From Prolixibacteraceae bacterium (GTDB taxonomy: Bacteria > Bacteroidota > Bacteroidia > Bacteroidales > Prolixibacteraceae), in assembly GCA_030602265.1 (NCBI GenBank), contig JAUWAB010000028.1, positions 1 through 48,754 of the forward strand: DNA of 48,754 nt, written 5' to 3'. Under the pieces are notes generated by a model. It searched no databases and was not told where the DNA came from. It saw nothing but the letters and a program-made list of their open reading frames with translations. Below are positions 2,222-45,592 of the stretch, in pieces. The stretch's first letter is position 1. Each line of letters begins with the position of its first letter. The position numbers were made by a program, and so were the translations under genes.

Positions 2222-2228
2222 CTTGTAT

Positions 2229-3782: not shown

Positions 3783-3823
3783 AAAATCTATCTAATTTTT
3801 TTTGAATCGGTAAAATAAGTGAA

Positions 3824-11870: not shown

Positions 11871-11879
11871 GTGCCCGGA

Positions 11880-12599: not shown

Positions 12600-12622
12600 T
12601 GCTCTCTCATTATTAGTGATAT

Positions 12623-12630
12623 CAAAGTTA
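12623..12630 (-). promoter_or_regulatory. -7 box before GIN-domain gene
   Basis: TAACTTTG on the minus strand matches TAnnTTTG; the expected start of transcription, near 12617, is about 18 bases before the ATG at 12599. No matching -33 TTG was found at the right distance, so this is a partial match. Confidence 0.5.
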
Positions 12631-12712
12631 CGGAGCAGCATTGGATTAAGTTCCTCTATTTCGACGAACAGCCTGGTTTTACCGGTAAATGAAGAATTAA
12701 TGGTTCAGAATG

Positions 12713-12745
12713 AAAAAGCGCCGGGATTTTGTACCGGCGCTTTTT
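12713..12745 (-). terminator. Rho-independent terminator after the Ig-like gene
   Basis: A perfect 12-bp inverted repeat, AAAAAGCGCCGG with CCGGCGCTTTTT, loop of 9 bases, followed by T-rich sequence on the minus strand. It lies about 70 bases beyond the stop of the gene at 12818 and before the GIN-domain gene promoter, separating the two. Confidence 0.8.
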
Positions 12746-12817
12746 AACGATTTTCTCTGATTACAACCCGATCTTCTGTTTTGTGTGATCCCGAAAGACC
12801 ACTTCCATTAATTCTTC

Positions 12818-13402: not shown

Positions 13403-13570
13403 GACATTTCTTAATTTGTTAGACTTCTTGTTTTCTGATTGTTGCTTTCGCGGTTTTGACTGGCCATTTGCAGAAAGGTTTAACCGGATAAACTACTCTT
13501 AAATTATAAATTACAAAATTTTAACATTGGGCCACGCTGGGGTATGATGCCGTATATGTACAAGAATTGT

Positions 13571-27760: not shown

Positions 27761-28627
27761 TTATTTAATATTCTGAAGTTTTGTTTTTATTTCGTTCACC
27801 ACAATTTTCTGACGGTCTATAGTATTCATCAGTTCGCCCTGTTCGCGGAGGTTCCTGTTACCCTGCCGTTCAAATTTATTTATCCTTCGCTCATTTCGGT
27901 TTATCTTTTTCTGATTTGACCTGATGTCTTTTCTTAGTTTTTTTGCATCGGCTTCATGTTGTTCAAGCATTCCCTGAGCTTCATTTCCCGATGCATCAAA
28001 GAGCTCTTTTCTCTGCAGACGCATTTCATAATCCCTTATTTCACTCCGCATATCCTGATTGTCGGAACGCATATTGCTGATCTTTCTATCGTTACTGTTC
28101 TGCTGTCTTCCCATTTTCCGGAGATCACGTTCGAGTGCCCTCAGGTTATTTTCCTCACCATGCAGTTCCTTTTCAACCGCATCGCGATAAACCGCCAGTG
28201 CGTAATCCCGCACAAACCGGGTGGCATCTTCAACCGTGGCACCGCCCGATTCCTTTGAGCCAATAAAAACACCTCCCTCCTGAAAGAAAATCTTTATAAA
28301 GATCCTTTCCGGAAAAGCAGACACCTGGGCATATACATTCAGCGCTTGAGCACTTATTTTTTTTACTTCCACATCACGCATGATCCATTCGTCCTTCTCC
28401 TGTACAAGCCTGGGATTTTTACTGAAAATGCCGAAAAGTCCACGGGGGGCAAGGGTCCTTTCAAGAATGCTGATGGCGTCATTGGCAGTGGCCTGCGGGA
28501 CTTCCACCTCAAAGGCCGGCTGAATTCCCTGAGAGGACGGCCTTTCCTGTATACTGACCGTAATCTGTTCCTGACCAAAAGCGATTAACGGACAAATCAA
28601 TAGAATAAAAAGAGCAATCTTATTCAT
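27761..28627 (-). CDS. Exported coiled-coil protein of unknown function
   Basis: 288-residue protein with a clean signal peptide (MNKIALFILLICPLIAFGQ). Residues about 22-150 form a compact beta-alpha region (VSIQERPSSQGIQPAFEVEVP, then FPERIFIKIFFQEGG and TRFVRDYALAVYRDAV). Residues about 155-285 are a charged coiled coil rich in R, E, N and K (RALERDLRKMGRQQNSN to the C-terminus). It is likely periplasmic. No enzymatic motif is visible. The frame runs further upstream to 28699, but the Met at 28627 gives the signal peptide directly and is chosen. The gene converges on the tetR-type gene across the long hairpin. Confidence 0.75.
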   Translation of the reverse strand: MNKIALFILLICPLIAFGQEQITVSIQERPSSQGIQPAFEVEVPQATANDAISILERTLAPRGLFGIFSKNPRLVQEKDEWIMRDVEVKKISAQALNVYAQVSAFPERIFIKIFFQEGGVFIGSKESGGATVEDATRFVRDYALAVYRDAVEKELHGEENNLRALERDLRKMGRQQNSNDRKISNMRSDNQDMRSEIRDYEMRLQRKELFDASGNEAQGMLEQHEADAKKLRKDIRSNQKKINRNERRINKFERQGNRNLREQGELMNTIDRQKIVVNEIKTKLQNIK

Positions 28628-28969: not shown

Positions 28970-30799
28970 TTATTTCAATTCAAAAATGGAAACAGACTTC
29001 GGCGGAAGCGAAATTGAACCCAGGCCAGATATTTTTTTCCCTGTAATAACTTCGGTGGCAGAGGACTTGTCTTTTAGTAATTCAGTCAGCCGGTCAGTTT
29101 TCAGCACCGTCTCTCCGGAGTTCTTGTTTAGCACTACCATGATCATGTCGTTTTCATTATGCCTGAAGTATACGTACATTCCTTCGAATGGCAGGAAATG
29201 GGTGGTTTTGCCTGAATGGACCACTTCTTTGTCTTTTCTCCAGAGCAGCAGTTTCCGGATAAATTCCTGGGCTTCTTTCTGCCTGGATGTCAGGCCGTAT
29301 CCGGTAAAGCCATTAATTTTATCATCTTTCCAGCCTCCGGGGAAATCTTTACGAATGTCGCCGTGATTATCACCGGGATGGGTGAGCAGTACCTCTGTTC
29401 CGTAAAAGATCTGGGGGATGCCCCGGGTAGTCAGGAAATAAGCAATTCCCATCCTGAACAGGTCATAGTCTTCATTTACCTGCATGTAAAACCTGCTCAT
29501 GTCGTGATTATCCGGAAATATGACCAGGTTCATCGGGTCTGGATACTGGAAATCCATGGCCAGTGCGTCATAGATCTGCATCAGGCCGCCGTTGCCGGGT
29601 TCGTTCAGTCCTCTGGAAACTGCGTTCTGCAGTGGAAAGTCCATCATGCTTGGGATCTGTCCGTCGTATCCGTCGAGGTTTTTCTTACCTTTCTGCCAGT
29701 AGGAGACGATGGCCGCATTATTGTGCCACTCTTCGCCAACATTGTTGAAGTATGGGTACTCCTCCAGAACCCTCAGGTTCCATTCGGCCATCATATGTTT
29801 ATCAGGGTATGGGTAGGTATCCATACGGATTCCGCTCAGCCATGCATATTCAATCCACCATATGCTGTTCTGGATCAGGTATGTCGCCAGAAATGGATTG
29901 TGCTGGTTCAGGTCGGGCATAGTAGGTACAAACCATCCGTTGAGCATCTGGTTACGGTCATATTCCGAGCCGTTCGGGTCCTGGATCAGGGTTTTCACAT
30001 GATTGGTGATCTGATAATCCGGATATTGATTGATCCAGTCGGAGGATGGAAGGTCCTTCATCCACCAGTGTTCAGAGCCGCAGTGATTGAAAATCATGTC
30101 CATGATGAGCTTAATTCCCTTGTCTCTGGCTTTAAGCGCGAAAGCCTGATACTCCTCGTTGGTCCCGTAGCGTGGATCAACCTTGTAGAAGTCGGTAGTG
30201 GAATAACCATGATAAGAATACGAGGGCTGGTCATTTTCAAGGAGCGGATTGAGCCAGATAGCCGTAAAGCCCATACCGGCGATATAGTCGAGGTTGTCTA
30301 CCAGTCCCTGAATATCCCCTCCATGCCGGCCACCCTTTAAATTCCTGTTGGGTTTCTCCTTCATGCCTTCAACGTAGTCGTTGTCGGGATTGCCATTGGC
30401 AAACCGGTCGGGCATGATCAGGTACATGGCATCTGCCGGAGTGAATCCTTTCCGGTTAGCTGAACCAGGCTCCCGGTGCTTTAGTTCATAAGAGTAATCT
30501 GCTATGGCTTTTCCGTTCCGGAAAAACGTAATGGGAAAAGTGCCGGGCCTGGCTCCTTCTATGTGGAGGTCGATGAACAGATAGTTTGGGTTCTCCACCT
30601 GGGAAACGCTTTTCAGGGTTACACCGGGATAGTCAACAGATACCCTGGAATTGCCAATTTCAGGCCCGTAAACCATCAGCTGTAGGTTCGGGTTTTTCAT
30701 TCCGGCCCACCAGAACATGGGCTCCACCCTGACATTTCCGGAAGAGTATACCTGGATTGCCAGGAAAATAATAAGAAGCGATGTGGTTAATTTTTTCAT
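28970..30799 (-). CDS. Periplasmic GH13 alpha-glucan hydrolase (cyclomaltodextrinase/neopullulanase-like, SusA-like)
   Basis: 609-residue exported alpha-amylase-family enzyme expected to cut maltodextrins, cyclodextrins or pullulan pieces in the periplasm. Signal peptide 1-20 (MKKLTTSLLIIFLAIQVYSSG). An N-terminal beta-sandwich (about 21-120) precedes the TIM barrel (YLIMPDRFANGNPDND onward) with the four GH13 regions: MDMIFNH, GIRMDTYPY with nucleophile Asp327, NVGEEW with acid/base Glu356, and FPDNHDMSR with Asp433. A small C-terminal beta domain ends FELK. The frame is open to 30913, but the extra residues are a translated tandem repeat, so the Met at 30799 is used. It is the last gene of the minus-strand half of the starch locus. 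Confidence 0.93.
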   Translation of the reverse strand: MKKLTTSLLIIFLAIQVYSSGNVRVEPMFWWAGMKNPNLQLMVYGPEIGNSRVSVDYPGVTLKSVSQVENPNYLFIDLHIEGARPGTFPITFFRNGKAIADYSYELKHREPGSANRKGFTPADAMYLIMPDRFANGNPDNDYVEGMKEKPNRNLKGGRHGGDIQGLVDNLDYIAGMGFTAIWLNPLLENDQPSYSYHGYSTTDFYKVDPRYGTNEEYQAFALKARDKGIKLIMDMIFNHCGSEHWWMKDLPSSDWINQYPDYQITNHVKTLIQDPNGSEYDRNQMLNGWFVPTMPDLNQHNPFLATYLIQNSIWWIEYAWLSGIRMDTYPYPDKHMMAEWNLRVLEEYPYFNNVGEEWHNNAAIVSYWQKGKKNLDGYDGQIPSMMDFPLQNAVSRGLNEPGNGGLMQIYDALAMDFQYPDPMNLVIFPDNHDMSRFYMQVNEDYDLFRMGIAYFLTTRGIPQIFYGTEVLLTHPGDNHGDIRKDFPGGWKDDKINGFTGYGLTSRQKEAQEFIRKLLLWRKDKEVVHSGKTTHFLPFEGMYVYFRHNENDMIMVVLNKNSGETVLKTDRLTELLKDKSSATEVITGKKISGLGSISLPPKSVSIFELK

Positions 30800-30826: not shown

Positions 30827-30908
30827 GGTAATCAGTGAACGGTAATCAGTAATCAGTGAACGGTAATCGGTAATCAGTGAACGGTAATCAGTAAACGGTA
30901 AACAGTAT
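30827..30908. repeat. Tandem array of GGTAATCAGTGAAC-type units
   Basis: About six imperfect copies of a 7- to 14-base unit (GGTAATCAGTGAAC, GGTAATCAGT, AATCAGTGAACGG, GGTAATCGG and so on) run without spacer. In the minus frame it gives the peptide repeat TDYRSLI, which artificially lengthens the GH13 frame. The array lies in the likely untranslated leader of that gene. Such ATCAGTGA/ACGGTAAT phrases are probably dispersed in the genome. Confidence 0.85.
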
Positions 30909-30910
30909 GG

Positions 30911-30939
30911 CAAAGGTAAACGACTGTTAGTGAGTTCAA
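30911..30939 (-). promoter_or_regulatory. Possible promoter for the GH13 gene
   Basis: On the minus strand TTG (30937-30939) and TACCTTTG (30911-30918) are 18 bases apart, one base short of the usual 19-21. The transcript would start near 30905 and carry the tandem repeat array in a leader of about 105 bases. Confidence 0.45.
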
Positions 30940-30975
30940 TAATAAATAATCAATAATAAATAATCAATAATAAAT
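30937..30975. repeat. 14-base AT tandem repeat
   Basis: Two full copies and one partial copy of CAATAATAAATAAT in direct order. It lies just upstream of the possible GH13 promoter, partly overlapping its -33 element. No protein frame is involved. Confidence 0.85.
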
Positions 30976-31021: not shown

Positions 31022-32158
31022 TCAGAAATTTACTGAAAGGCTTTCATTTCCCTGAATTTCCCTGGTTCGGTTGTTAAGGATGAGGCTTATGGAATTGGTC
31101 GTAAGATTATGCAGTACAAATTTCTGCCGGTCGGCCTCGATTTCCAGGACGGTATTCCGGAGATGGAACTGAAAGCAGAAGGAATTCCAATCGCCGGGCA
31201 ACTCAGGGTGCAATACCGGATGCCTGTTTTTCAGGCTGAAGCCAAGGCAATAGAGGAGGGTAGAGTTCCAGCGACTGGCAAGATGATTCAGTCTGGATTC
31301 ACTGCCGGATTGCTTGTCCGGTGAGATATCCGTAAATAGGTCCGTCAACTGGCTTCTGCCATCCTGATGCAATTCATCCATTTTCATTTTTTTCATCAGT
31401 GATGACCAGCCGTCGGAACCTGCGATACCACTTTTCCGGATGATTTCTTTCCAGGCTGCGGTTTCCTTTATTTCGCTGAACCTGTAATTTTCCCTGAAAT
31501 CTTCGTACATCCAGGAGTTCTCGGATTTCAGGTAACTGATATTGCCCAGTGTCATATGTAAAACCCTTCCCGCTTTTTCCATTACCTGATGGTAATCTGC
31601 TGTTTCTGCCTTTAAGGCATCCGGTGAAGACTGGTCCCGGAGTAGCGAGGACCAAAGCCTGCTGAGGACAAGTTGCAGGTCAAATCCGCCCGATAGCAGA
31701 TATTCCCTATCCTCGGTAAACAGGTTATACAACAGCAATGAGTCGGAAATTGCTATCAGCCGTTCAATATCTTTGGGGCTTATCTGTTTCTGGCTTTTTT
31801 CATCCGGGTTTGCTAATACAGTACCAGGATAGAAAACCGGACCTGTATGAATTTCTTCAGGAAGATTTTTGACGGTGCTGTTCAGCAACTGTTTCATTTT
31901 CTTCAGATGGTACCTGCGTACTTCGGCAGTTGGATACCCAAGCATTAAAAGCAGCAGAACATGAGTGTCCAGGATATTGGGCCCCGCTGTTTTTGCGGTA
32001 CTTGATTCAGATCCCGGTTTATTGTGTGGGATCAGTTCAGAAGGCAACTGGTTTTTTAACTCCCGAATCAGGGAAAGTATGGAGTTTTGTGCTTCAGGAT
32101 TGCCCCGGATCAGGGTTTCATGATTCTGCCATATCATAATAGGGTGTATTATTTGCAT
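31022..32158 (-). CDS. Degenerate GH65-like protein in the maltose phosphorylase position (probable pseudoenzyme)
   Basis: 378-residue cytoplasmic protein, half the size of GH65 maltose phosphorylases (about 750-800). Read against that family it is colinear from the helical linker to the C-terminus: IWQNHETLIRGNPEAQN (about 9-25), LDTHVLLLLMLGYPTAEVRR (63-82), YNLFTEDREYLLSGGFDLQL with LSRLWSSLL (144-173), then RWNSTLLYCLGFSLKN and HPVLHPELPGDWNSF (about 296-327) and the small beta domain to the end. Missing are the N-terminal beta-sandwich, the catalytic Glu (Ser208 in LGNISY where GPNEY/GPDEY is expected) and the phosphate-binding lobe between about residues 260 and 280. The frame is intact, 30 bases after the MFS gene. 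No beta-phosphoglucomutase gene is present. A binding or regulatory role is speculation. Confidence 0.65.
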   Translation of the reverse strand: MQIIHPIMIWQNHETLIRGNPEAQNSILSLIRELKNQLPSELIPHNKPGSESSTAKTAGPNILDTHVLLLLMLGYPTAEVRRYHLKKMKQLLNSTVKNLPEEIHTGPVFYPGTVLANPDEKSQKQISPKDIERLIAISDSLLLYNLFTEDREYLLSGGFDLQLVLSRLWSSLLRDQSSPDALKAETADYHQVMEKAGRVLHMTLGNISYLKSENSWMYEDFRENYRFSEIKETAAWKEIIRKSGIAGSDGWSSLMKKMKMDELHQDGRSQLTDLFTDISPDKQSGSESRLNHLASRWNSTLLYCLGFSLKNRHPVLHPELPGDWNSFCFQFHLRNTVLEIEADRQKFVLHNLTTNSISLILNNRTREIQGNESLSVNF

Positions 32159-32188: not shown

Positions 32189-33721
32189 TCAGTCTGTTTT
32201 CCTGGCACCCGGGCTGTCCACGTCATTCACCAGTCCGACCGACAGAGCGGCCACCAGCAGGGATATTCCGCCTGCCGTTAGGGCATATATGGCCTGACCG
32301 TTGAAGAATTGCCGCATGAAGAATCCAAGAATGCTGGCAGCGAGGATCTGTGGAATAACAATAAAAAAATTGAATATTCCCATATAGGTTCCCATTTTGT
32401 CGGAAGGCAACGACCCGGTAAGGATGGCATAAGGCATCGACAGGATACTGGCCCAGGTAAAACCGATACCGAGCATGGGCAGAATCAGCATCATGGGTGT
32501 TTTGATCATGCCAATGGAGAGAAACGACAGTCCGCCAATGAGCAGTGCAATGGCATGTGTCCATTTACGGCTGGTATGTTTTGCAAGAACAGGCAATAAA
32601 AAGGCTACCAGTGCGGAGAAGCCGTTATAAATGCCAAAAAGTACGCCTACCCAGTTGGCTCCTTCGTTATACATGGCCGACCCGGTATCCGTGGTGCCAT
32701 AGATGTGGCTGGTTACAGCCGGGGTGGTATAAATCCACATGGCAAACAGGGCAAACCAGCTGAAGAACTGCACAACTGCTAATTGCTTCATGGTGGCGGG
32801 CATATTCACCATGTCGGTGAAGATTTCCACCAGGCCGTTTTTTACATTCTTCTTTTTAGTAAGAACCGTGGCTAGATACATCAGGACCCCGAACAGGACG
32901 AGGCCTCCGCCAATGATATAGAGTTCCTTTTCCAGTTCCCTGAAGTAGACAATCAGGATGAAAAGCAACCCGAAAAAGAGTGCGATAGTTCCGTTTCTCA
33001 GGAAGGCCGGTACCAGTTCGGGTGCACTTCTTGAACGGATTGATTTTTTAATGGTTGACTCCCGGTGCTCATAGGCTTCAAATTCCCTGAGTTGTTCAGG
33101 CGAATACTCCCTGGTCCGGAAGATGGTCCAGAGCACAGCCAGCAGGAAAACAGATCCACCTATGTAAAAAGAGTATTTTACCGTGGGGGGAATTTCGCCG
33201 GGTAGTGCCGTGTTGGCAATTCCGATCCAGTGGTCGAGCACATAGGGCAGTACTGAAGCCACTACTGCCCCAATCCCGATAAAAAAGCTCTGCATGGCAA
33301 ATCCGGTGGTTCGCTGTTCGGAGGGCAGCATATCGCCGACGAAAGCCCTGAAAGGTTCCATGGTGATATTGATGGATCCGTCCATAATCCAAAGCATGCC
33401 AACGGCCACCCATAGGGAAGGCGAGTTGGGCATGAAGAGCAGGGCCGCCGAAGCGAGCAGTGCTCCAATCAGAAAGTAGGGTCGCCTCCTGCCGAGCCGG
33501 TTCCATGTTTTATCACTGTAGTGCCCCACAATCGGCTGAAGGATCAGTCCGGTGACCGGTGCTGCGAGCCAGTATACTGCCAGGCGGTCGACATCACCGC
33601 CCAGAGTCTGGAAAATACGGGAGACATTGGCATTCTGCAGGGCAAATCCGAACTGGATCCCCAAGAAGCCAAAACTCATATTCCATATCTGCCAGAAATT
33701 CAGAGTAGGTTTCCTTTTCAT
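32189..33721 (-). CDS. MFS glycoside/maltose transporter (SLC45/GPH-like)
   Basis: 510-residue inner-membrane carrier with about 12 transmembrane segments and a long charged central loop. The N-terminal half has IVGHYSDKTWNRLGRRRPYFLIG, the D-x-GRRRP loop shared by plant sucrose carriers, SLC45 proteins and the Bacteroidota maltose carriers. The C-terminal half has FNFFIVIPQILAASILGFF, also typical. It would bring maltose or short maltodextrins across the inner membrane, probably with a proton. It is the first gene after its own promoter at 33813-33844, followed at 30 bases by the GH65-like gene. It appears complete. Confidence 0.88.
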   Translation of the reverse strand: MKRKPTLNFWQIWNMSFGFLGIQFGFALQNANVSRIFQTLGGDVDRLAVYWLAAPVTGLILQPIVGHYSDKTWNRLGRRRPYFLIGALLASAALLFMPNSPSLWVAVGMLWIMDGSINITMEPFRAFVGDMLPSEQRTTGFAMQSFFIGIGAVVASVLPYVLDHWIGIANTALPGEIPPTVKYSFYIGGSVFLLAVLWTIFRTREYSPEQLREFEAYEHRESTIKKSIRSRSAPELVPAFLRNGTIALFFGLLFILIVYFRELEKELYIIGGGLVLFGVLMYLATVLTKKKNVKNGLVEIFTDMVNMPATMKQLAVVQFFSWFALFAMWIYTTPAVTSHIYGTTDTGSAMYNEGANWVGVLFGIYNGFSALVAFLLPVLAKHTSRKWTHAIALLIGGLSFLSIGMIKTPMMLILPMLGIGFTWASILSMPYAILTGSLPSDKMGTYMGIFNFFIVIPQILAASILGFFMRQFFNGQAIYALTAGGISLLVAALSVGLVNDVDSPGARKTD

Positions 33722-33944: not shown

Positions 33945-34961
33945 TTACAACCTGGATGAGCCCCGGATGATCAGGTCACCTTCAAGCACTTTGGTTTCCG
34001 GGGGATAATCGGTTTTGTTCTCCAGGATTCTTTTCAGCAGCATTTCCGTGGCAGTAATGCCCATTTCGTATCCGTGCTGGTCTACCGAGCTCAGGGATGG
34101 TTCAGTAATTCCGGAAAAACGGCCGTCGGAGAACCCTACCAGTGCCACGTCGTCGGGGATTTTGAAGCCCTGTTTCTGCAGTCCCTTCATGGCACCAATG
34201 GCGGTGATATCGTTCACAGAAAAAATGCCGTCGGGCAGGTTTCCTTCCGTTACGAAGTTTAAAATAGCCCGCTGAGCTTTCTCATAGTTATCGGCTTCAA
34301 CGATATAACGCGGATCCACTTCGAGGCCGGCTTCCCTGACGGCCTTCAGATAACCTTCTTTGCGCTGTTGCCCTATCAGCAGGTTTTGCGGTCCTGCAAA
34401 ATGGGCGATTCGTTTGCGCCCCTGGTCGATCATATGTTTTGTTGCCTGGTAGGCTGCCTCCATATCGTTAATGATTACCTGATCTGCGAAAATACCAGGA
34501 GCAACCCGGTCGTAAAAAACCAGAGGGATTTGGTTATTGACGATCTGCTGTAGATGCTGGAAGTCGATGGTTTCCTTGGAAATGGAAACCAGGATTCCAT
34601 CGACCCGCTGGGCGATAAGGGTTTTTACGTTGGAGAGTTCACGGTCGAATTTTTCATTCGACTGGCAGATAATGACGTTAAACCCTGCATTATAGGCCAC
34701 ATCCTCAATTCCGGAGATTACCGAAGAGAAGAAGTAGTGGACGATTTCGGGGATAATCACCCCGATGATGCGGGTACGCTGATTTTTCAGGCTGAGGGCG
34801 ATGGCGTTTGGCTGGTATTTAAGTTTTGCAGCCAGGTCGTTCACCGCTCTTTTGGTTTCTTCGCTGATATCGGGATGCCCCTGCAAAGCCCTGGAAACCG
34901 TAGATGCCGAGACGCCTAATTGTCTGGCTATATCTTTTATGGTAACCTGATTACCTTTCAT
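33945..34961 (-). CDS. LacI-family transcription regulator of the starch locus
   Basis: 338-residue regulator. N-terminal helix-turn-helix with hinge: VTIKDIARQLGVSASTVSRALQ (residues 6-27) and KYQPNAIALSLKN; the rest is a periplasmic-binding-protein-like effector domain (IIGVIIPEI, then MIDQGRKRIAHFAGPQ, and DVALVGFSDGRFSG). It should sense an intracellular sugar, likely maltose or a phosphosugar. It is divergent from susC across a 302-base gap that holds a perfect palindromic operator, and it is upstream of the MFS operon, before which the same half-site pattern recurs. Both halves are therefore its probable targets. Activator or repressor action is discussed in the findings. Confidence 0.92.
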   Translation of the reverse strand: MKGNQVTIKDIARQLGVSASTVSRALQGHPDISEETKRAVNDLAAKLKYQPNAIALSLKNQRTRIIGVIIPEIVHYFFSSVISGIEDVAYNAGFNVIICQSNEKFDRELSNVKTLIAQRVDGILVSISKETIDFQHLQQIVNNQIPLVFYDRVAPGIFADQVIINDMEAAYQATKHMIDQGRKRIAHFAGPQNLLIGQQRKEGYLKAVREAGLEVDPRYIVEADNYEKAQRAILNFVTEGNLPDGIFSVNDITAIGAMKGLQKQGFKIPDDVALVGFSDGRFSGITEPSLSSVDQHGYEMGITATEMLLKRILENKTDYPPETKVLEGDLIIRGSSRL

Positions 34962-35263: not shown

Positions 35264-38215
35264 ATGATGAAAATTGTTCAAAACAGTGTTAAAGTACTTT
35301 TGCTGATGGGTGTTCTGTTGTTTACTACAGCAGTTTATGCCCAGCAAAAGACCATTACGGGGAAGGTCACCGATGCCCGGTCTGGTGACCCTATGCCTGG
35401 TGTGACGATCATCATTCCGGGGACCACTACCGGTACCATAACCAACTTTGACGGGGATTACAACCTGACCATCAGTACGGGCCAGACCCTTGCCTTTTCG
35501 TTTATCGGTTATGAAACCCAGCAGATAGTAGTGGGCGACCAGAATGTGTATAACATCAGGTTGTCTCTTTCGACAGAAGCACTCGATGAGGTGGTGGTAA
35601 TTGGATACGGACAGGTAAGGAAGAGCGATGCCACCGGTTCAGTTACTGCGATAAGCTCAAGGGATTTCAACAAAGGGGCGATAACTTCAGCCCAGGACCT
35701 GCTGGTCGGTAAAAGTGCCGGGGTGGTGATTACCACTGCTGGCGGTGCCCCGGGCAGCGGATCAACTATCCGGATCAGGGGAGGATCTTCCTTAAATGCT
35801 TCTAATGATCCCCTACTGATCATTGATGGTGTACCCATTTCCAACAACAATGTATCAGGTAGCAGTAACCTGCTCTCATTTGTTAATCCAAATGATATTG
35901 AAACATTTACAGTTTTGAAGGATGCTTCTGCCACTGCAATATACGGTTCAAGGGCTTCAAACGGGGTGATTATCATTACGACCAAAAAAGGGCAGGCCGG
36001 TAGTCCGTTGCGGGTTAACTATGATGCCAATACTGCTGTCTCCAGCGCAATCCGATTTATGGATGTTTATTCAGGTGATGAGATCAGGCAGCTTGCCCTG
36101 GACAGGAAAACGCTTTTTGGATTGGATAATTTAAAGATCCTCGGACTGGAAAATACCAACTGGCAAAAAGAGTTGTTCAGAACAGGTTTAACCCTCGACC
36201 ACAACTTAAGTATCTCGGGTGCATATGAAACCATGCCATATCGGGTGTCTTTAGGCTATACCAACCAGGAGGGAATTATGAAGAATACAGACATGGAAAG
36301 ATTTACCGGTTCGTTTAGCCTTGATCCTGTTTTTCTGGATGGTTCACTCAGGGTTAATGCAAATTTGAAGGCGATGCTTTCGAACCACAATTTCGGAGAT
36401 ACCGGTGCTCTTGGTTCGGCAATAAATATGGATCCGACCCAACCTATCCGGGACGGAAATCCAAAATCGGCCGGTTATTTCCAGTGGACCAATTTCGGGG
36501 CAAATCTTGGCACGCCAAACCCGGTGGAACAGCTAAGGGCTGCAGACAACAGATCCGAAGTCACCAGAGTTATCGGGAATATTCAGATGGATTACCGTCT
36601 TCCTTTTTTGCCGGGTTTGCGGGCTAATCTGAACCTTGCCTCAGACCGGTCGAAAAGTGAGGGACACAACAACCGACCGACTACATCGCCCTCTACCCTT
36701 ACTGCTCCATTATGGGGAAGATTGAGTGATTACAGCGGGAAAAACACCAATGATCTTCTGGAATTTTATTTGAATTACGTAAAGGACATTGAGCCGGTTA
36801 AAAGCAGGATAGATGCTACAGCCGGTTATTCATGGCAGCATTTCCAACGGGAAGGGGAAAGTTACACCCGTGGAATTGTAGATGCTACCCACCCTTACCA
36901 AAAAAGCGACAGTACCAGTTTTATTACCGAGAATTATCTGGTATCCTTTTTCGGCCGTTTAAATTATACTTTAGCCGATAAATACCTGTTGACACTCACG
37001 ATGAGGGCAGACGGTTCCTCGAGGTTTATAGGCGATAACCAGTGGGGTATGTTCCCTTCGGCAGCTTTTGCATGGAAAATAAAGGATGAATCATTTCTCA
37101 AAGATGTTAAGACGGTATCCGAGTTAAAACTCAGGTTAGGCTGGGGGGTTACCGGCCAGCAGGATATCGGTAATGATTATCCTGCCCAGGCCCGTTACCT
37201 CATGTCGTCTGCAGGAAGTTACTATCCAATCGGTGGAACACACCTTCCGACTCTCCGGCCGAATGCATATGACCCCGATATAAAATGGGAGGAAACCACC
37301 ACCCAGAATATTGGTCTGGATTTTGGTTTCCTAAGCGACCGGATTACCGGTTCTTTCGATGTGTACAAAAGGGTAACCGAAGATTTGCTTAATACGGTTA
37401 CCATTCCGACCGGAAGTAACTTCTCTAACATACTGCTTACCAATGTAGGAAGCCTGGAGAATAAAGGGGCTGAATTCTCCCTTAACCTTGTTCCTGTTTC
37501 CACCCCTGATTTGTCTCTTAATGTCGGATTCAACTTTACTTATAATGAGAATGAGATCACGAAGCTTCTCTTTACCGATAATCCAGATTATTTGGGGATT
37601 CTTTATGGCGATGCCTTCACTGGACAAAAGCAGGTTACCAGGGTGGGATATCCGGCTTATTCCTATTTTGTCAACAAACAGGTTTATGATTCAAACGGAC
37701 GGCCTATTGAAGGTCTTTATGTGGACCTGTCGGGAGAAGGCGGTGTGGTTAATGGAGATAATGCCGATAAATATATCTACCATAATCCGGTTGCAGATTA
37801 CCTGCTGGGATTATCGCTCAGGGTCAATTACAAGGATTTCGATTTTTCTGCATCGAGTCGGACCAGTTTGGGGAATTACGTATACAACCAGGTGGCTGCA
37901 GGTGCTTCATACGATCAGATGTACCAGATCGGCTACTGGAAGAACTTTCCTAAGTTCCTGGATGATACTCAATTTGTCAAACGTCAGTTTACCAGTGACT
38001 ACTTCGTTACCGATGCTTCCTTCTTTAAACTGGACAATATGAGTTTCGGGTACACTATCCAGGATAAACTTTCGGCCCGGTTAAGTTTCACTGTTCAGAA
38101 TGTTTTTACCATAACAAAGTACAAAGGATTAGATCCTGAGGTACCTGGCGGTATAGACAATAATATCTACCCGAGGCCCCGTACTTATATGTTCGGAATA
38201 AATTTGTCGTATTAA
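35264..38215 (+). CDS. susC: SusC-type TonB-dependent starch oligosaccharide importer
   Basis: 983-residue outer-membrane transporter, the channel half of the SusCD pair. Order: signal peptide (about 1-26, ending VYAQQ); carboxypeptidase-like domain (about 28-105, TITGKVTDARSGDPMPGVTI); TonB box region (EALDEVVVIGYGQVRKSDATG, split here at 20: DEVVVIGYG then QVRKSDATGS); plug (about 125-240) with IRIRGGSSLNASNDPLLIIDG read as GTIRIRG-like motifs and DASATAIYGSRASNGVIIITT; beta-barrel to the C-terminus, ending RTYMFGINLSY. Start ATG at 35264, two Met codons in a row. First gene of the plus-strand half, 21 bases before susD. Starch as substrate is inferred from the neighbouring GH13, SusE/F and MFS genes. 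Confidence 0.94.
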   Translation: MMKIVQNSVKVLLLMGVLLFTTAVYAQQKTITGKVTDARSGDPMPGVTIIIPGTTTGTITNFDGDYNLTISTGQTLAFSFIGYETQQIVVGDQNVYNIRLSLSTEALDEVVVIGYGQVRKSDATGSVTAISSRDFNKGAITSAQDLLVGKSAGVVITTAGGAPGSGSTIRIRGGSSLNASNDPLLIIDGVPISNNNVSGSSNLLSFVNPNDIETFTVLKDASATAIYGSRASNGVIIITTKKGQAGSPLRVNYDANTAVSSAIRFMDVYSGDEIRQLALDRKTLFGLDNLKILGLENTNWQKELFRTGLTLDHNLSISGAYETMPYRVSLGYTNQEGIMKNTDMERFTGSFSLDPVFLDGSLRVNANLKAMLSNHNFGDTGALGSAINMDPTQPIRDGNPKSAGYFQWTNFGANLGTPNPVEQLRAADNRSEVTRVIGNIQMDYRLPFLPGLRANLNLASDRSKSEGHNNRPTTSPSTLTAPLWGRLSDYSGKNTNDLLEFYLNYVKDIEPVKSRIDATAGYSWQHFQREGESYTRGIVDATHPYQKSDSTSFITENYLVSFFGRLNYTLADKYLLTLTMRADGSSRFIGDNQWGMFPSAAFAWKIKDESFLKDVKTVSELKLRLGWGVTGQQDIGNDYPAQARYLMSSAGSYYPIGGTHLPTLRPNAYDPDIKWEETTTQNIGLDFGFLSDRITGSFDVYKRVTEDLLNTVTIPTGSNFSNILLTNVGSLENKGAEFSLNLVPVSTPDLSLNVGFNFTYNENEITKLLFTDNPDYLGILYGDAFTGQKQVTRVGYPAYSYFVNKQVYDSNGRPIEGLYVDLSGEGGVVNGDNADKYIYHNPVADYLLGLSLRVNYKDFDFSASSRTSLGNYVYNQVAAGASYDQMYQIGYWKNFPKFLDDTQFVKRQFTSDYFVTDASFFKLDNMSFGYTIQDKLSARLSFTVQNVFTITKYKGLDPEVPGGIDNNIYPRPRTYMFGINLSY

Positions 38216-38236
38216 ACCATCAAGTACTTAACAGAT

Positions 38237-39874
38237 ATGAGCAAAAAATTATTAACAATAATCTTCCTTTCCGTAATGGTTATGACATCATGCGTGAAAG
38301 ATCTGGATGTGATACCCAAAGATCCAAATACCATTCTCTCGGGAAATCTCCAGAATGACCCGGTTTACATGAAGCAGGTTCTTGGGAAAATTTACGCCAG
38401 CTTTATCATCAATGGGCAGGGTGCCAACGGTGGCCCCGACATTGCTGCTTCTGATGCGGATTTCTTTACCACTGCCAGGGCCTTGTGGAACCTGCAGGAA
38501 ATTACTACCGATGCGGCCATCTGTGCCTGGGGTGACGTGGGTATTTCCGATCTGAACACCCAGACCTGGAGCCCGAACAATCCCTTCCTTACTGCACTGT
38601 ACCAACGTTTGGGACTGAGTATTACCTATGCCAACGATTTCATTAAAATGACCAATGGCAACACCAATCCGGATATTATCCGATACAATGCTGAGGCCAG
38701 GTATCTTAGAGCGCTGGCCTATTACTACTATATGGACCTGTTCGGGAATCCTCCGTTTACGACTGAAGCCGACGGAGTCGGAAAATTCTTCCCGAAACAG
38801 CTCGATCCGGATGTTACCGTCGCCAGAAAGCTTCTGTTCAATTACATCGTTTCTGAACTGAAAAGTATCGAGGACAAGCTTGGTGAACCCAGATATTCCT
38901 ATCCTCAGGCCGATAAAGGTGCTGCCTGGATGCTGCTGGCCCGTGTTTATCTCAATGCTGAAGTTTTTACCGGTACAGCAAAGTGGGATAGCTGTAAGAT
39001 TTACAGCGACAAGGTTATCAACAGCCAGAAATATTCCCTGGCTACCAACTATCGCCAAAATTTCAGTGCGGATAACGATGGCCGGAACAATCCGGAGATG
39101 ATCTTTGCGTGGGCGCAGGATGGAATTCATACACAGGGAGGTGGAGCCGGTACAACCTTTATTATCCAGTCGACCAGTGATGCTGTGTATATAAGGTCAG
39201 AGGATTATCATGGTCTCACGGTAAACACTAACTGGAACGGAAACCGGGCCAGAAGGGAGTTTATGAATGTACTTGTGGATACCCTGGCTGTTTACGGGAA
39301 TAATCCGGTCCCGTTAACCGATCCGACTTTTTCTCAGGTAAAGGATAAAAGGATATTCCTGAAAATGAAGAGAAGCATGGATATCCCAAGCCCGTCCTCC
39401 AGTGGGGATTACGGAATTGGCGTGTTTAAGTTTACAGCTAAAAATTCAGACGGAAGCCAGGCGGCCAATTATAATCCTCAGTATTCGAATACGGATTTCC
39501 CGGTCTTCAGACTGGCTGATGCTTATCTGATGCGGGCAGAGGCTTCTTTCCGGATGAATAATACAGCCGCAGCCGTGACTGATATTAATATTATCCGGAC
39601 ACGTGCCTATGGAAATACCTCAGGAAATATTACTGCCGACAAGCTGACTGCACAGTTTATTCTGGATGAAAGGGCCCGTGAGTTTTATTATGAGGCTCAG
39701 AGAAGGACCGACCTGGTCAGGTTTGGAAAATTTACCGACGGAAACTATAACTGGACCTGGAAGGGTGGCGTATACAGAGGAACCAACACCAGCCGGCACC
39801 TGAATATTTTCCCGATTCCGGGCGATGAAGTGGCTGCCAATCCTAATATCAGGCAGAATCCTGGCTATAATTAA
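38237..39874 (+). CDS. susD: SusD/RagB-type glycan-binding lipoprotein
   Basis: 545-residue surface lipoprotein that closes the SusC channel and captures the glycan. Lipobox VMTSC with Cys19. The all-helical SusD fold has the family phrase RYLRALAYYYYMDLFGNPPF near residue 160 and FRLADAYLMRAEASFRMN near residue 420, then LDERAREFYYEAQRRTDLVRFG near residue 475 (marks of the C-terminal SusD_RagB segment). The ending HLNIFPIPGDEVAANPNIRQNPGY is the usual family C-terminus (given in short: FPIPGDEVAANPNI then QNPGY). It lies 21 bases after susC and 19 before the SusE-like gene, in one operon. Confidence 0.95.
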   Translation: MSKKLLTIIFLSVMVMTSCVKDLDVIPKDPNTILSGNLQNDPVYMKQVLGKIYASFIINGQGANGGPDIAASDADFFTTARALWNLQEITTDAAICAWGDVGISDLNTQTWSPNNPFLTALYQRLGLSITYANDFIKMTNGNTNPDIIRYNAEARYLRALAYYYYMDLFGNPPFTTEADGVGKFFPKQLDPDVTVARKLLFNYIVSELKSIEDKLGEPRYSYPQADKGAAWMLLARVYLNAEVFTGTAKWDSCKIYSDKVINSQKYSLATNYRQNFSADNDGRNNPEMIFAWAQDGIHTQGGGAGTTFIIQSTSDAVYIRSEDYHGLTVNTNWNGNRARREFMNVLVDTLAVYGNNPVPLTDPTFSQVKDKRIFLKMKRSMDIPSPSSSGDYGIGVFKFTAKNSDGSQAANYNPQYSNTDFPVFRLADAYLMRAEASFRMNNTAAAVTDINIIRTRAYGNTSGNITADKLTAQFILDERAREFYYEAQRRTDLVRFGKFTDGNYNWTWKGGVYRGTNTSRHLNIFPIPGDEVAANPNIRQNPGYN

Positions 39875-39893
39875 TTACTAAATTCAAAGAGCA

Positions 39894-40928
39894 ATGAATA
39901 GAAAATCAATATTATATTTAATCCTGTTTGGATTAACCGGCCTTTTTGCAGCATGCGAAAAGGATGAGGTGAAGGTAGTTATGCTGGATAATCCTGTTGC
40001 TCCCACATTGGTTACTGTTCCGGACCTAATCCTGAAGAGGGCCGATGGAAATAAAACACTTGAGTTTACTGGAACAGCTGTTGATCCCGGATTCCAGGCC
40101 TCGGCCAACTATTTTCTTGAAGGAAGCCGGGCTGGTACCAATTTTGCCAATCCGTTTACCATTTATTCAGGTATTCAGGGATTGACCATGAAGATAACCG
40201 TAAGTGACCTGAATACCATTCTTCTCAGAAACCTTGATGCTGACGTAACTTCATCGGTAGATCTGCGGCTTCGTGCCGTTCTGGTGGTTGATGCGGGAAC
40301 AGGTGCCCCGGGGACCAGTGCAAGCCCATTTGAGTATACTTCAGCAGTTAAAACCGTTCAGGTATCACCATATGGATTGCCAAGGCTCGATCTTATCGGG
40401 TCAGGAATCGACCAGAAAATAGAGTCAGCCCTCGGTGACGGCAAATATTTCGGGTACGTAAAACTCGATAAAGCCAAACCTTTTACCTTACGGAATCCGG
40501 ATACCAATACAACTTATGGGGTGTCAGGAGGAGCTTTGGCTGTAAACGGTGCTGCGATAGTCCCGGCCGACAACGGATGGCATAAACTGACTGTCGACAC
40601 ACAGGCCCTTACTTACAAGATTGAGGCATATATGATCGGACTGGTTGGATCTGCAACGCCTAACGGATGGGATTCACCCGACCAGAAAATGGATTATGAT
40701 GCCAAGACTGGTACCTGGAGAATCACTATAAACTTAGTAAACGGTGATATAAAATTCAGGTTGAACGACGGTTGGGCATGGAACCTGGGTGGTCCTTTGG
40801 ATGCACTGACTGTAGGTGGTGCCAATATTCCGCTCACTGCCGGTAATTATACCATTGTACTGACCATTACCAATCCGAATTCTACTGATGGCCAGGTTGG
40901 CGGAAGGTGTACCATTACCAAAAACTAA
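39894..40928 (+). CDS. susE: SusE-like starch-binding outer-membrane lipoprotein
   Basis: 344-residue lipoprotein with LFAAC, Cys21. An N-terminal SusE domain (about 30-155: APTLVTVPDLILKRADGN, LEFTGTAVDPGFQASANYF) is followed by a short linker module (about 158-243) and one C-terminal SusE/SusF-type carbohydrate-binding module (about 244-344: LVGSATPNGWDSPDQKM, IKFRLNDGWAWNLGG, TAGNYTIVLTI). Such proteins hold starch at the surface beside the SusCD pair. Compared with the two-module SusE of Bacteroides thetaiotaomicron this one seems to carry a single clear module. Same operon, 28 bases before the next gene. Confidence 0.88.
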   Translation: MNRKSILYLILFGLTGLFAACEKDEVKVVMLDNPVAPTLVTVPDLILKRADGNKTLEFTGTAVDPGFQASANYFLEGSRAGTNFANPFTIYSGIQGLTMKITVSDLNTILLRNLDADVTSSVDLRLRAVLVVDAGTGAPGTSASPFEYTSAVKTVQVSPYGLPRLDLIGSGIDQKIESALGDGKYFGYVKLDKAKPFTLRNPDTNTTYGVSGGALAVNGAAIVPADNGWHKLTVDTQALTYKIEAYMIGLVGSATPNGWDSPDQKMDYDAKTGTWRITINLVNGDIKFRLNDGWAWNLGGPLDALTVGGANIPLTAGNYTIVLTITNPNSTDGQVGGRCTITKN

Positions 40929-40956
40929 TTGAAAGAAACCTTTTAACAGAATTTTT

Positions 40957-42801
40957 ATGAATAGAAGAAACATATATAGTTTCATGGCATTCCTCCTCTT
41001 TTCAGTGATTGTTCTCACATCCTGTACGGAGGAAATGTCAGAGGTGAGGCTGGACCCCAAATTATCCACTACCCAGCTGATGAATGTCACTTCTGACTCA
41101 GCCACGGTTGTCGGTTTTGTAGTTGCCCAGGGCGATGGTTTCACGGAAAGGGGTATCTGTTACAACACCTCTCCCAACCCAACCATCAACGATAAGAAGG
41201 TGGCCTATACGGGTGAACTTAAATCAGCTGCCTTTAGCATCCGTCTGGGTGGTCTGAACTATGCGACTAAGTATTACGCAAGGGCTTACGCTATTAATCC
41301 TGACGGAGTTATCTACGGAGAAGAACAGACATTCACTACTTTGCCTGTTGTTCCGGTCCTGACGACGACGGCTATAACGGCTATCACCGGGAACTCTGCC
41401 AGTGGCGGTGGTAACGTTACCATAGGTGGCGGTGCCGAGGTTACTGTCCGGGGTATTTGTTTCAGCACGACCAATCCTCCCACCATCGCCGACAGCAAAA
41501 CAACGGATGATAAGGGAACGGGTGCTTTTACCAGCCAGCTTACCGGACTGAAGGGGAACACCACCTATTATGTAAGGGCTTATGCCACCAACAGTGCGGG
41601 TACAGGTTATGGTCCGGTGGTTACTTTCAAGACCCTGGTTGACCTTCCGGTGGTTACCACCACTCCGGCTACGGCCATTACCAAAACCAGTGCCGCCTCC
41701 GGAGGTGTTGTCTCCTACGACGGTGGTGCTGAGGTTACTGAAAGGGGTATTGTATGGGGCAGATCTGCTGAGCCTACCGTTTCTGACAACAAGATAACCG
41801 CAGGTACAGGCACCGGTGCATTTGTCAGCAGCCTGACCGGCCTCGAGCTGTTTACTACCTATCATGTACGCGCCTATGCCATGAATAGTGCAGGTGTAGC
41901 CTACGGATCCAATATCCAGTTTACTACCCTTGCCAATACCCGTACCTGGAATATTCCGGGGGATTATGTGGAAGCCAGCTATCCGGGTCTCGGACTGGCC
42001 AACTGGTCGCCCGACAGATCTCCGCAGGTCATGAGTACCGTATCGGCGCCGGATCATCTGGAAGGTTATGTATATATGGCCAATTCCTCGAACCAGTGGA
42101 AATTTGCTACCCAGAACAACTGGGATGGCCCCAATTACGGCGGACGCATCGGAGTACTTGATCCTTCAGGTGATAACTATAATTTGCCCAAAGGATACTA
42201 CAAAATCAATGCGAATGCTGCAGACATGACCTTTACGGCCATCGCAACCGAATGGGGCGTAATAGGTGATGCCACACCGAAAGGATGGGACGATGAAACT
42301 CCGCTTACTTACTATCCAGCACTGAAAACCTGGAGAGGCGGAATACACCTGAAAGCTGCCCAGTTCAAATTCAGGGCAAACCATTCCTGGGATTACAATT
42401 ACGGAAGTTCCTCAGGAAATGAAAAGCTCAATGCCGGCGGGGATAACATTCCGGTAGGCCTTGAAGCTGATTATTATATCATTCTTGATCTGAGCAAACC
42501 CAATGAGTATACCTACTCGGCCAATCGCTGGGGACTTATCGGAGATGCCACTCCCGGAGGATGGGGTACCGATACCGATATGACCTGGGATCCGGTTAAT
42601 AAGGTATTGAAAATTACCCTTGACCTGGTGGCCGGAAGCTTTAAGTTCAGGGCTAACGATTCCTGGGATTATAATCTCGGAGGTGATCTTAACAATCTGA
42701 CACCCAACGGGGATAATATTCCTGTAGCCTCTCCCGGAAATTATACCATCACGCTTGACTTATCAGGAAGTAGCATTAAGTCTACTGTAACAAAGAATTA
42801 G
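40957..42801 (+). CDS. SusF-like lipoprotein with three fibronectin-type and up to three starch-binding modules
   Basis: 614-residue surface lipoprotein: VLTSC, Cys23. Three tandem Fn3-like repeats fill about 30-325, each with an ERGI or VRGI core (FTERGICYNTSPNPTI, VTVRGICFSTTNPPTI, VTERGIVWGRSAEPTV) and an ending like YYVRAYATNSAGTGYG. Then come three stretches of about 90-100 residues: 330-430 (WKFATQNNWDGPNYGG), 431-525 (WGVIGDATPKGWD, FKFRANHSWDYNYG) and 526-614 (WGLIGDATPGGWG, FKFRANDSWDYNLGG). The last two are clear SusE/SusF-type starch-binding modules, the first a diverged one. The Fn3 repeats probably act as a stalk. Same operon as susCDE. Confidence 0.88.
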   Translation: MNRRNIYSFMAFLLFSVIVLTSCTEEMSEVRLDPKLSTTQLMNVTSDSATVVGFVVAQGDGFTERGICYNTSPNPTINDKKVAYTGELKSAAFSIRLGGLNYATKYYARAYAINPDGVIYGEEQTFTTLPVVPVLTTTAITAITGNSASGGGNVTIGGGAEVTVRGICFSTTNPPTIADSKTTDDKGTGAFTSQLTGLKGNTTYYVRAYATNSAGTGYGPVVTFKTLVDLPVVTTTPATAITKTSAASGGVVSYDGGAEVTERGIVWGRSAEPTVSDNKITAGTGTGAFVSSLTGLELFTTYHVRAYAMNSAGVAYGSNIQFTTLANTRTWNIPGDYVEASYPGLGLANWSPDRSPQVMSTVSAPDHLEGYVYMANSSNQWKFATQNNWDGPNYGGRIGVLDPSGDNYNLPKGYYKINANAADMTFTAIATEWGVIGDATPKGWDDETPLTYYPALKTWRGGIHLKAAQFKFRANHSWDYNYGSSSGNEKLNAGGDNIPVGLEADYYIILDLSKPNEYTYSANRWGLIGDATPGGWGTDTDMTWDPVNKVLKITLDLVAGSFKFRANDSWDYNLGGDLNNLTPNGDNIPVASPGNYTITLDLSGSSIKSTVTKN

Positions 42802-42817
42802 TTTTAATCAGAATCAG

Positions 42818-42850
42818 GAGGGTTGCCTTGACCGGGCAGCCCTCTTTTTT
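42818..42850 (+). terminator. Terminator inside the sus operon, before the amylase
   Basis: GAGGGTTGCC (42818-42827) pairs with GGCAGCCCTC (42835-42844) with one G-T pair, loop of 7 bases, followed by six Ts. It lies in the 67-base gap between the SusF-like gene and the amylase gene on the same strand. Confidence 0.82.
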
Positions 42851-42868
42851 CTATTTATTTTCATCCAC

Positions 42869-45592
42869 ATGAACCGTTTACTGACTTTATTCATCGTTGT
42901 CATTTTATCCCTGAAATCAGGGTATACCCAAATTACCACCGAACCGGCCATGCCAGTGGCAGCAAAGGAAGTAATTGTCACTTTTAACTCCGCGCAGGAA
43001 AGCCGTTTGGGATATTTCACCGGTGATTTGTATGCACACACCGGAGTGGGCATTGAAGGCGAAGGCAATTGGAAGAATGTCATCGGAACCTGGGGAAATA
43101 ACGCTGTCCAGCCAAAACTGACGAATAAAGGTAACGGTATTTATGAACTCAGAATAAGCCCTGATCTGTATACATTCTATTCCGTGGCTGCCTCTAAAAA
43201 GATTGTGAATATGTCGTTTGTCTTCCGGTCATCTGACCAAACCAGACAGACAGAAGACTTGTTCGTAACCGTATTCGAAGAGGGATTGTTTGTGCAATTC
43301 ACCAAACCGGTCGATAATTCGGTGCTGTTTGTCAATTCCCCGGTTGAGGTATCTTTTAATGCTTCCATATCAGCGTCGTTATCCTTGTTTGTTGATGATC
43401 AGTTGGTTTCACAGGCCGATGGAAAAAACCTCAGTTATTCGGTCAGTTTTGCTGAAAGCGGGAACCACTGGCTGATCGCCAGGGCAGTGCAAAGTGGCGA
43501 AACAAGCCATGACTCTTTATATGTGACCGTACAGGGCAGTGTGCCACAATCTCCCAAACCATCAGCCTACAGGAAAGGAATCAATTATCTGTCGGATACT
43601 GCAGCAGGGCTGGTATTATGGGCCCCTCAGAAGAACTATGTGTATGTGTTGGGTGATTTCAATGACTGGCGGCCAGACAACGCCTATCTGATGAACAAGG
43701 ATGGCGACTATTTCTGGATGGAGGTAGACAACCTGACACCGGGGAAACAGTACGTATTTCAGTATTTCATAGACAGCGATATCCGGATTGCCGATCCGTA
43801 TACTGAACAAACGTCAGATCCCGAAGATCAGTGGATACCTTCGGCTTCATATCCGGGGCTTGTTCCTTATCCGGCCGGAAAAGCAACAGGAATTGCCTCT
43901 GTGCTTCAAACGGCCCAGATTCCCTATTCCTGGGAAATTCATGATTTTGTGCCACCCCCGGTCGACCGGTTAGTCATATATGAAGTGCTGATCAGGGATT
44001 TTACCGATCAGCGAACGTATCTTTCTGTCATTGAGAAGCTGGACTATCTGAAGACGCTGAATGTGAATGTTCTCGAACTGATGCCGGTTAATGAGTTTGA
44101 AGGAAACCTGAGCTGGGGTTATAATCCATCTTTTTATTTTGCCCCCGATAAGTTTTATGGTCACCGGAATGACCTGAAACGGCTCATTGATGAGGCTCAC
44201 AAACGGGGAATTGCCGTGGTGATTGACATGGTCCTAAACCACAGTTACGGGCAGAGCCCTTTGGCCCGGATGTACCTCGATAAGGCTACAGGCCGGCCGG
44301 CAGCCAATAATCCATGGTACAACCCACAGCATAATTTCCAGAATCCGGATGCGCAGTGGGGTTATGATTTCAACCATGAAAGTATCCACACCAGGGCATT
44401 GGTCGACAGTATCAACAGTTTCTGGATAAATGAATATAAGGTTGATGGTTTCCGGTTTGATTTCACCAAGGGTTTCTCCAATACACCTTTCGGGCCTGGC
44501 GACTGGGGCAGTGCCTACGATGCGGCCAGGATTGCCAATTTGAAACGCATGGCCGACGAAATCAGAAAAAGAAAAAGTGATGCGTTGATCATTTTTGAAC
44601 ATCTTTCAGATAATTCTGAAGAAAGGGAATTAGCCAATTATGGAATTCTCCTCTGGGGGAACATGAATGGAAGTTACAGAAGTGCAGCCAAGGGTTTTTC
44701 TTCAGATTTATCATGGGGATTACATCAGAGCAGGAACTGGACGGTTCCGCACCTGATCAGCTATATGGAAAGCCACGATGAGGAAAGAGTGCTTGTCGAC
44801 TGTCTTCAGAACGGACTGAATGAAGGGGCCTACGATACCAGGAATTTCAGTATTGCCATCGACCGGATGAAACTGAATTCGGTTTTTCTGCTTCCGCTTC
44901 CAGGCTCAAAAATGATCTGGCAATTTGGGGAACTGGGGTATGACTATTCCATTAATCACAATGGGAGATTGGGTTTAAAACCTGTAGTCTGGAACTATAC
45001 GGATAATCCGGTCAGATATGATTTATACAAAACCAAAGCCCGGCTTAATTTCCTGAAACAGAAATACGAGGAATTTTCTAATCCTGTATTCCAGGGAAGC
45101 CTGAACTCCACCGTTAAATGGTACAGGCTTACCAATGGTGACCATCACGTGGTGGTAGTCGGGAATTTTGGCCTGACGGCCCAATCAGCTACCATAAATT
45201 TCCCCGTTACCGGGTTGTGGTATGACTATTTCGGGGCGACAACCTACAGTGTCACCCAATCTTCACAGCAGGTCAGCCTCGCACCGGGGCAATACCGGAT
45301 GTACAGCACCCGGAAATTTGATGATCCCTTTTTAATCAATGATATAAATACTATTACCGGAAGCACGGATGTTCTTCTTTATCCAAATCCGGCTGTGAGT
45401 GAGGTCAGCATTAGTTCGGGATCGGTAATAACCGGAATTGAGGTCAGAAATGTATCAGGGCAGCTGGTTTATTCCGGACAATATTCTGAAATGAAGGTTG
45501 TTTTACCGGTAAACCGTTTTCCTGCAGGTTTGTATTTGGTATCGGTTATTCAGGGGAGTGAAATGTCCCAACGGAAACTGATAATCCAATAA
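42869..45592 (+). CDS. Secreted GH13 alpha-amylase with T9SS sorting domain
   Basis: 907-residue extracellular starch-degrading enzyme. Signal peptide (1-20), then N-terminal beta modules (about 21-230; QITTEPAMPVAAKEVIVTF and a second Ig-like piece), a CBM48/E-set module (about 235-330: GLVLWAPQKNYVYVLGDFND), and the GH13 barrel from about 365 (VIYEVLIRDFTDQRTYLSV). GH13 regions: VVIDMVLNHSYG; VDGFRFDFTKGF with nucleophile Asp531; IIFEHLS with acid/base Glu577; YMESHDEERV with Asp637. A beta-domain follows, and residues about 830-907 form a type A T9SS sorting domain (LLYPNPAVSEVSI, GLYLVSVIQG, then SQRKLIIQ). The protein is thus carried by the type IX system. It comes 67 bases and a terminator after the SusF-like gene. 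Confidence 0.93.
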   Translation: MNRLLTLFIVVILSLKSGYTQITTEPAMPVAAKEVIVTFNSAQESRLGYFTGDLYAHTGVGIEGEGNWKNVIGTWGNNAVQPKLTNKGNGIYELRISPDLYTFYSVAASKKIVNMSFVFRSSDQTRQTEDLFVTVFEEGLFVQFTKPVDNSVLFVNSPVEVSFNASISASLSLFVDDQLVSQADGKNLSYSVSFAESGNHWLIARAVQSGETSHDSLYVTVQGSVPQSPKPSAYRKGINYLSDTAAGLVLWAPQKNYVYVLGDFNDWRPDNAYLMNKDGDYFWMEVDNLTPGKQYVFQYFIDSDIRIADPYTEQTSDPEDQWIPSASYPGLVPYPAGKATGIASVLQTAQIPYSWEIHDFVPPPVDRLVIYEVLIRDFTDQRTYLSVIEKLDYLKTLNVNVLELMPVNEFEGNLSWGYNPSFYFAPDKFYGHRNDLKRLIDEAHKRGIAVVIDMVLNHSYGQSPLARMYLDKATGRPAANNPWYNPQHNFQNPDAQWGYDFNHESIHTRALVDSINSFWINEYKVDGFRFDFTKGFSNTPFGPGDWGSAYDAARIANLKRMADEIRKRKSDALIIFEHLSDNSEERELANYGILLWGNMNGSYRSAAKGFSSDLSWGLHQSRNWTVPHLISYMESHDEERVLVDCLQNGLNEGAYDTRNFSIAIDRMKLNSVFLLPLPGSKMIWQFGELGYDYSINHNGRLGLKPVVWNYTDNPVRYDLYKTKARLNFLKQKYEEFSNPVFQGSLNSTVKWYRLTNGDHHVVVVGNFGLTAQSATINFPVTGLWYDYFGATTYSVTQSSQQVSLAPGQYRMYSTRKFDDPFLINDINTITGSTDVLLYPNPAVSEVSISSGSVITGIEVRNVSGQLVYSGQYSEMKVVLPVNRFPAGLYLVSVIQGSEMSQRKLIIQ

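Follow-up and report, generated by a model that had tools for sequence, protein, structure and literature searches.

Among described systems, the starch loci of Bacteroidota come closest to the locus analysed here. LacI, MFS and GH65 genes occur together in some Bacteroides sus loci, those of ‘Bf’ (presumably B. fragilis) and B. uniformis, according to the part of the report available to us (PMC11633381), and alpha-glucan PULs are described, in the part available of a second report, as combining GH65 with GH13 (PMC6794258). The window, the 48,754-nucleotide stretch of Prolixibacteraceae DNA that we analysed, holds a locus that has LacI, MFS, GH13 and SusC/D in common with these loci as the available parts of both reports portray them (PMC11633381, PMC6794258), but carries a shortened remnant in the place of GH65 and no adjoining beta-phosphoglucomutase (bPGM). 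In our own sample of 26 GH65 loci (23 from the family and three from the order, with short flanks and some contig ends), GH13 lies directly downstream in 21, bPGM directly upstream in 19 and MFS directly upstream in five. The GH65 maltose phosphorylase itself, represented by PDB 1h54 from Lactobacillus brevis and by the copy in the related genome G005, occupies the same starch-locus slot as the short gene and is colinear with the short protein over two stretches, but possesses six motifs, GP[ND]EY and HESSLS among them, and an N-terminal domain, none of which the short protein has. Pseudoenzymes turned regulators or partners, which have lost the catalytic motif and are kept by selection, are a known class. 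The short protein is like them in motif loss and in retention by selection, but differs in that about half of the protein is also gone and in that no active paralogue was found in its genome. No report of a GH65 pseudoenzyme was found in the openly accessible literature searched.

The short gene begins with ATG and has 378 open codons; 30 bp separate it from the MFS gene upstream and 222 bp from the GH13 Met (30799) downstream, and the original prediction of an open gene between the MFS carrier and GH13 is therefore borne out (Table 1). LacI, MFS, the short gene and GH13 share one strand, while susC to susF and a further GH13 lie on the other. By eye, the start of the downstream GH13 resembles a signal peptide. 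The interval that separates the short gene from the start of GH13 contains two short tandem-repeat arrays, one at 30827-30907 with a 21-bp or 14-bp GGTAATCAGT.. unit and a second at 30936-30975 with the 14-bp unit TCAATAATAAATAA. An ORF at 27764-28624 on the minus strand gave no Pfam match up to E 0.1; its homologue comes after GH13 in six of the seven genus genomes, the contig of G005 ending earlier, and it is possibly an unnamed partner of the starch locus.

Table 1. Coordinates of the short gene, its parts and its neighbours in the window.
Feature	Coordinates	Strand	Basis
Short GH65-derived putative pseudoenzyme gene, 378 aa	31022..32158	-	ORF, Pfam, HMM, HHalign
Most conserved patch of the short form, codons 193-240	31439..31582	-	Short-form alignment, segment identities
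C-terminal GH65C-like domain, codons 293-378	31025..31282	-	Pfam PF03633 residues 311-364; HMM residues 290-376
MFS sugar transporter, directly upstream of the short gene	32189..33721	-	Pfam MFS_1; neighbour conserved in genus
GH13, cyclomaltodextrinase-type, directly downstream of the short gene	28970..30799	-	Pfam; neighbour conserved in genus
LacI-family regulator of the locus	33945..34961	-	Pfam; neighbour conserved in genus
susC, susD, susE, susF and GH13 with C-terminal sorting domain, divergent	35264..45592	+	Pfam

The Pfam GH65C model (PF03633) matches the short protein above its cut-off (E 3.3e-7, 30.4 bits versus 22) and does so in all three short proteins, those of the window and of the two relatives described below. 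The GH65m catalytic domain (PF03632) matches below its cut-off (E 0.021, 14.2 bits versus 27), and the NCBIfam GH65 model scores 43.2 bits (E 1.6e-11), its cut-off for full-length proteins being 838. Comparing the three short proteins with 25 intact GH65 enzymes in HHalign resulted in a match of 99.7%, E 2.2e-26, over 340 columns; the intact set comprises 25 of 27 intact-type copies, L011 and L025, each cut by contig or locus, being excluded. An HMM of these 25 enzymes from related genomes aligns its positions 304-549 and 681-767 to residues 10-242 and 290-376 of the window protein, in keeping with the colinearity with the second half of GH65 that had been read by eye. A PDB sequence search with the single short protein was weak, 1h54 being its best match at E 0.012. 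AlphaFold2 models built from the three sequences were poor (pLDDT 53.5 and 47.6) and contain helices followed by C-terminal strands at low confidence. In a Foldseek search with the model of the window protein, GH65 enzymes fill the first 11 rows, with TM scores of 0.21-0.23 and an rmsd of ~17-19; row 8 (9lb6) carries a trehalose-6-phosphate name and matched intact GH65 by sequence. As only two of 258 matches reach E 0.001 and TM scores are low, we place the weight on the sequence evidence, by which the 378-codon ORF is a half-length descendant of a GH65 maltose phosphorylase. The proposed kinship was thus recovered, through GH65C and HHalign, and we hold it close to certain that the protein both descends from GH65 and has lost phosphorylase activity.

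Six motifs found in all 25 intact enzymes, GP[ND]EY, [YF][IV]KQ[AG]D, HESSLS, YWDTE, ECHNEWEI[TS]F[EQ]E and GPKGFTGEKYGG, occur in none of the three short proteins. The roles of motifs other than GPNEY are assumed here, KQ[AG]D and HESSLS being what we take to be the phosphate-binding region, and the loss of these two agrees with the original prediction that the phosphate-binding part is missing. That prediction was also right that the N-terminal domain is gone, as model positions 1-303 are without counterpart and PF03636, found in the intact G005 enzyme, gave no Pfam match in the short protein up to E 10. A further 131 model positions (550-680) are faced by 47 window residues that the HMM does not confidently align, and the short protein measures 378 aa against 769 aa for the G005 copy. 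Where the original prediction erred was in setting Ser208 at the position of the catalytic Glu, since this residue is part of I207-S208-Y209-L210-K211, which aligns with IDYLK of G005 past the catalytic loop. The Glu of GPNEY in G005 is E488 and aligns with residue 487 of 1h54, presumably the catalytic Glu; the window residue opposite it varies by method, being Ala181 with the HMM, Asp188 with HHalign and a gap with MAFFT. Residues 187-194 of both relatives read NLPFEPGE, placed differently against the old Glu by the HMM and HHalign, and a Pro-x-Glu may persist at their old catalytic loop, though a Glu there would still not be expected to give a phosphorylase, the other motifs being lost. With the six motifs lost, activity as a GH65 phosphorylase is very improbable for the short protein, and as a homologue of GH65 enzymes that is without their catalytic motif it classes as a putative pseudoenzyme.

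Within a genus sample of seven genomes, G000 (the window's own) to G006, the order LacI-MFS-short gene-GH13-ORF recurs in G001 and G004, judged to be Bacteroidales bacterium 6E and Prolixibacteraceae bacterium UBA5740, respectively. These hold orthologues of 364 and 363 aa in the same slot, and are the similar-length relatives in the same gene order for which a search had been proposed. In G005 the order is LacI-MFS-bPGM-intact GH65, and there the contig stops. Nothing lies between MFS and GH13 in G002 and G006 (LacI-MFS-GH13-ORF) or in G003 (partial MFS-GH13-ORF), and as these three congeners retain MFS and GH13 without the short gene, the short protein is not essential to either. MFS identity to the window is 82% for both G001 and G004, 76% for G005, 65% for G006, 66% for G002 and 61% for G003 (partial), which groups the short-form genomes together with G005 next; a single truncation after the split from G005 would be the simplest history. 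A GH65 tree was uninformative for placing the short clade, with branches of ~3-5 changes per site leading to the short forms.

In the scan of genome contigs a single short protein as the query returned no match and the alignment as the query returned two loci. Some match to the short model was obtained in 114 of 140 family genomes and 139 of 393 sampled order genomes; among the matches listed, only G000, G001 and G004 match over the whole model, the others matching in pieces as a full enzyme would. Of the short GH65 frames listed, which also include frames of 208 and 214 aa, seven others were inspected as further short forms and rejected (six at contig ends, one frame-split), and all seven keep GPNEY and HESSLS. 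In L090 (G091, 1671-3946), GH65 is split between two frames on a 4.9 Mb contig, by a frameshift or a sequencing error.

Neither a GH65 catalytic domain nor an above-cut-off bPGM was found in the scan of the window's genome, and a search of it for paralogues of the short protein returned only the protein itself. Both the GH65 catalytic domain and above-cut-off bPGM are confined to one of the seven genus genomes, G005, while weaker matches to the bPGM model occur in all seven and in 14 of 14 control genomes. GH77 is present in all seven. Five of the seven have a second GH77 (open frame, about 915-930 aa) and G003 a piece of one; none turned up in G005 (94% complete), the sole genus genome with maltose phosphorylase. 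This distribution suggests that a glucanotransferase may have replaced phosphorolysis. The second GH77 of the window's genome lies outside the window, on contig C155 at 11650-13545.

In intact enzymes the GPKGFTGEKYGG/YWDTE and ECHNEWEI segments are the most conserved (mean pairwise identity 0.90-0.91), the one that follows the catalytic loop ranks close to the bottom (0.52) and the C-terminal domain stands at 0.46. Between the short protein of the window and its relatives, the three former active-site segments have identities of 0.16-0.18, as against 0.81-0.91 in intact enzymes, and the top of eight segments is the post-loop one, window residues 193-240, at 0.50 (0.94 between G001 and G004). 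A single 45-residue stretch from position 196 takes up 24 of the 76 invariant positions, a concentration reached in 0 of 10,000 shuffles. Over the eight segments, conservation in the short and intact forms is negatively but not significantly rank-correlated (window versus relatives, rho -0.67, p 0.07; G001-G004, rho -0.26, p 0.53). By these identities the constraint is relocated, a variable part of intact GH65 having become the best-conserved stretch in the short proteins, and core packing as the cause of the patch conservation would give the same pattern.

The original prediction had offered maltose binding as one possible role, and a sensor of cytosolic sugar that binds maltose or maltodextrin through its C-terminal domain or what is left of the barrel would suit a gene adjoining the carrier and regulator of a maltodextrin locus. 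Such a role became less likely because the sugar-site motifs are gone from all three short proteins; the GPKGFTGEKYGG/YWDTE and ECHNEWEI segments, so uniform in the intact enzymes, have diverged to 0.16-0.17 between the window and its relatives, and the C-terminal domain is the lowest-identity segment of the closest pair, G001-G004 (0.55). We consider sugar binding unlikely.

For the short gene, G001 versus G004 (71% identity) gives a dN/dS of 0.136 (NG86) or 0.120 (YN00), values that rest on this one pair with a dS above 1 (1.27-1.40), the other two of three pairs being saturated. The same pair gives NG86/YN00 ratios of 0.050/0.062 for MFS, 0.056/0.054 for GH13, 0.035/0.029 for LacI, 0.030/0.048 for the downstream ORF and 0.033/0.042 for SusC, so that the ratio of the short gene is ~2-4.5 times that of the five neighbours compared. 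Differences between G001 and G004 number 65, 39 and 167 at the three codon positions over 363 codons, the reading frame is open in all three copies, and of 500 neutral simulations from the G001 gene at each of four divergences none preserved it. Along the gene, segment dN/dS for this pair ranges from a minimum of 0.041 at codons 196-250 to a maximum of 0.194 at codons 1-110, with dS saturated in the C-terminal part. Together, this one pair clearly points to purifying selection on the short gene, weaker than on the five neighbours, and we are highly confident that the gene is kept by selection.

Slow decay, in which the gene would be what is left of a maltose phosphorylase that can be dispensed with and would in time vanish as it has in three congeners, draws on the empty MFS-GH13 interval of those genomes, on a linker of variable length among the short forms and on rapid evolution, as the short protein of the window is only 26% identical to its relatives (with saturated dS) where MFS is 82% and GH13 75-76% identical. 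A dN/dS of 0.12-0.14, the third-position excess, the open frames and the neutral simulations speak against it, as do invariant positions clustered in the patch; simple decay is rejected, and we regard the slow form as quite improbable. The GH65 match, the short orthologues and the dN/dS instead uphold the view that a maltose phosphorylase gene shrank and stays under selection.

Strong selection would equally be expected if catalysis persisted, in a minimal hydrolase or transferase that derives from GH65 and has rebuilt its active site. Glu185, invariant in all three short proteins in one alignment, and the possible Pro-x-Glu in the old loop of the two relatives could be taken in favour of such an enzyme. 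However, all six motifs are lost, only 47 unaligned residues stand for the 131 model positions between the aligned stretches and the old site is not the most conserved segment, which leaves this reading doubtful at best. An assembly artefact, or a gene without kinship to GH65, as the sub-threshold catalytic-domain match and the weak hit to 1h54 might suggest, is scarcely credible given the HHalign match, GH65C above cut-off in all three proteins and three separate assemblies with the same gene and order.

The explanation we favour starts from a maltose phosphorylase placed as in related starch loci, between the sugar transporter and GH13. Comparison with intact enzymes shows that one branch of the genus lost the N-terminal domain and that a short non-aligning stretch took the place of the phosphate-binding part of the barrel; bPGM would have been lost too if the ancestor resembled G005. 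What remains, part of the helical barrel and the C-terminal domain, is under purifying selection in the one pair, and the short protein most likely acts in the cytosol by contact through the 193-240 patch; what it touches would be a further protein that takes up maltodextrin or controls its use, for example the MFS carrier or the LacI regulator. To this account as a whole, a pseudo-phosphorylase that works in the cytosol by making contacts with its patch, we give an even chance, and a contact or regulatory mode, taken by itself, may be right or wrong in about equal measure; any particular partner is unlikely. More tentatively, and with the balance somewhat against it, the phosphorylase may have been remodelled into an adaptor or regulator of maltodextrin use, half the original size and without catalysis, its catalytic and sugar sites freed from constraint and residues 193-240 serving as a new functional site.

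In a few related Bacteroidales a starch-locus enzyme is left without its active site and with half of its former length, and since selection keeps what remains, a new role outside catalysis is probable for it. Maltose phosphorolysis should not be assumed wherever a starch locus gives a GH65C match. One genus presents three states at one locus, an intact phosphorylase, a shortened and selected remnant and clean loss, and this series opens the transition from a metabolic enzyme to a non-catalytic protein to direct testing; Bacteroidales bacterium 6E, already sequenced, is one of the carriers.
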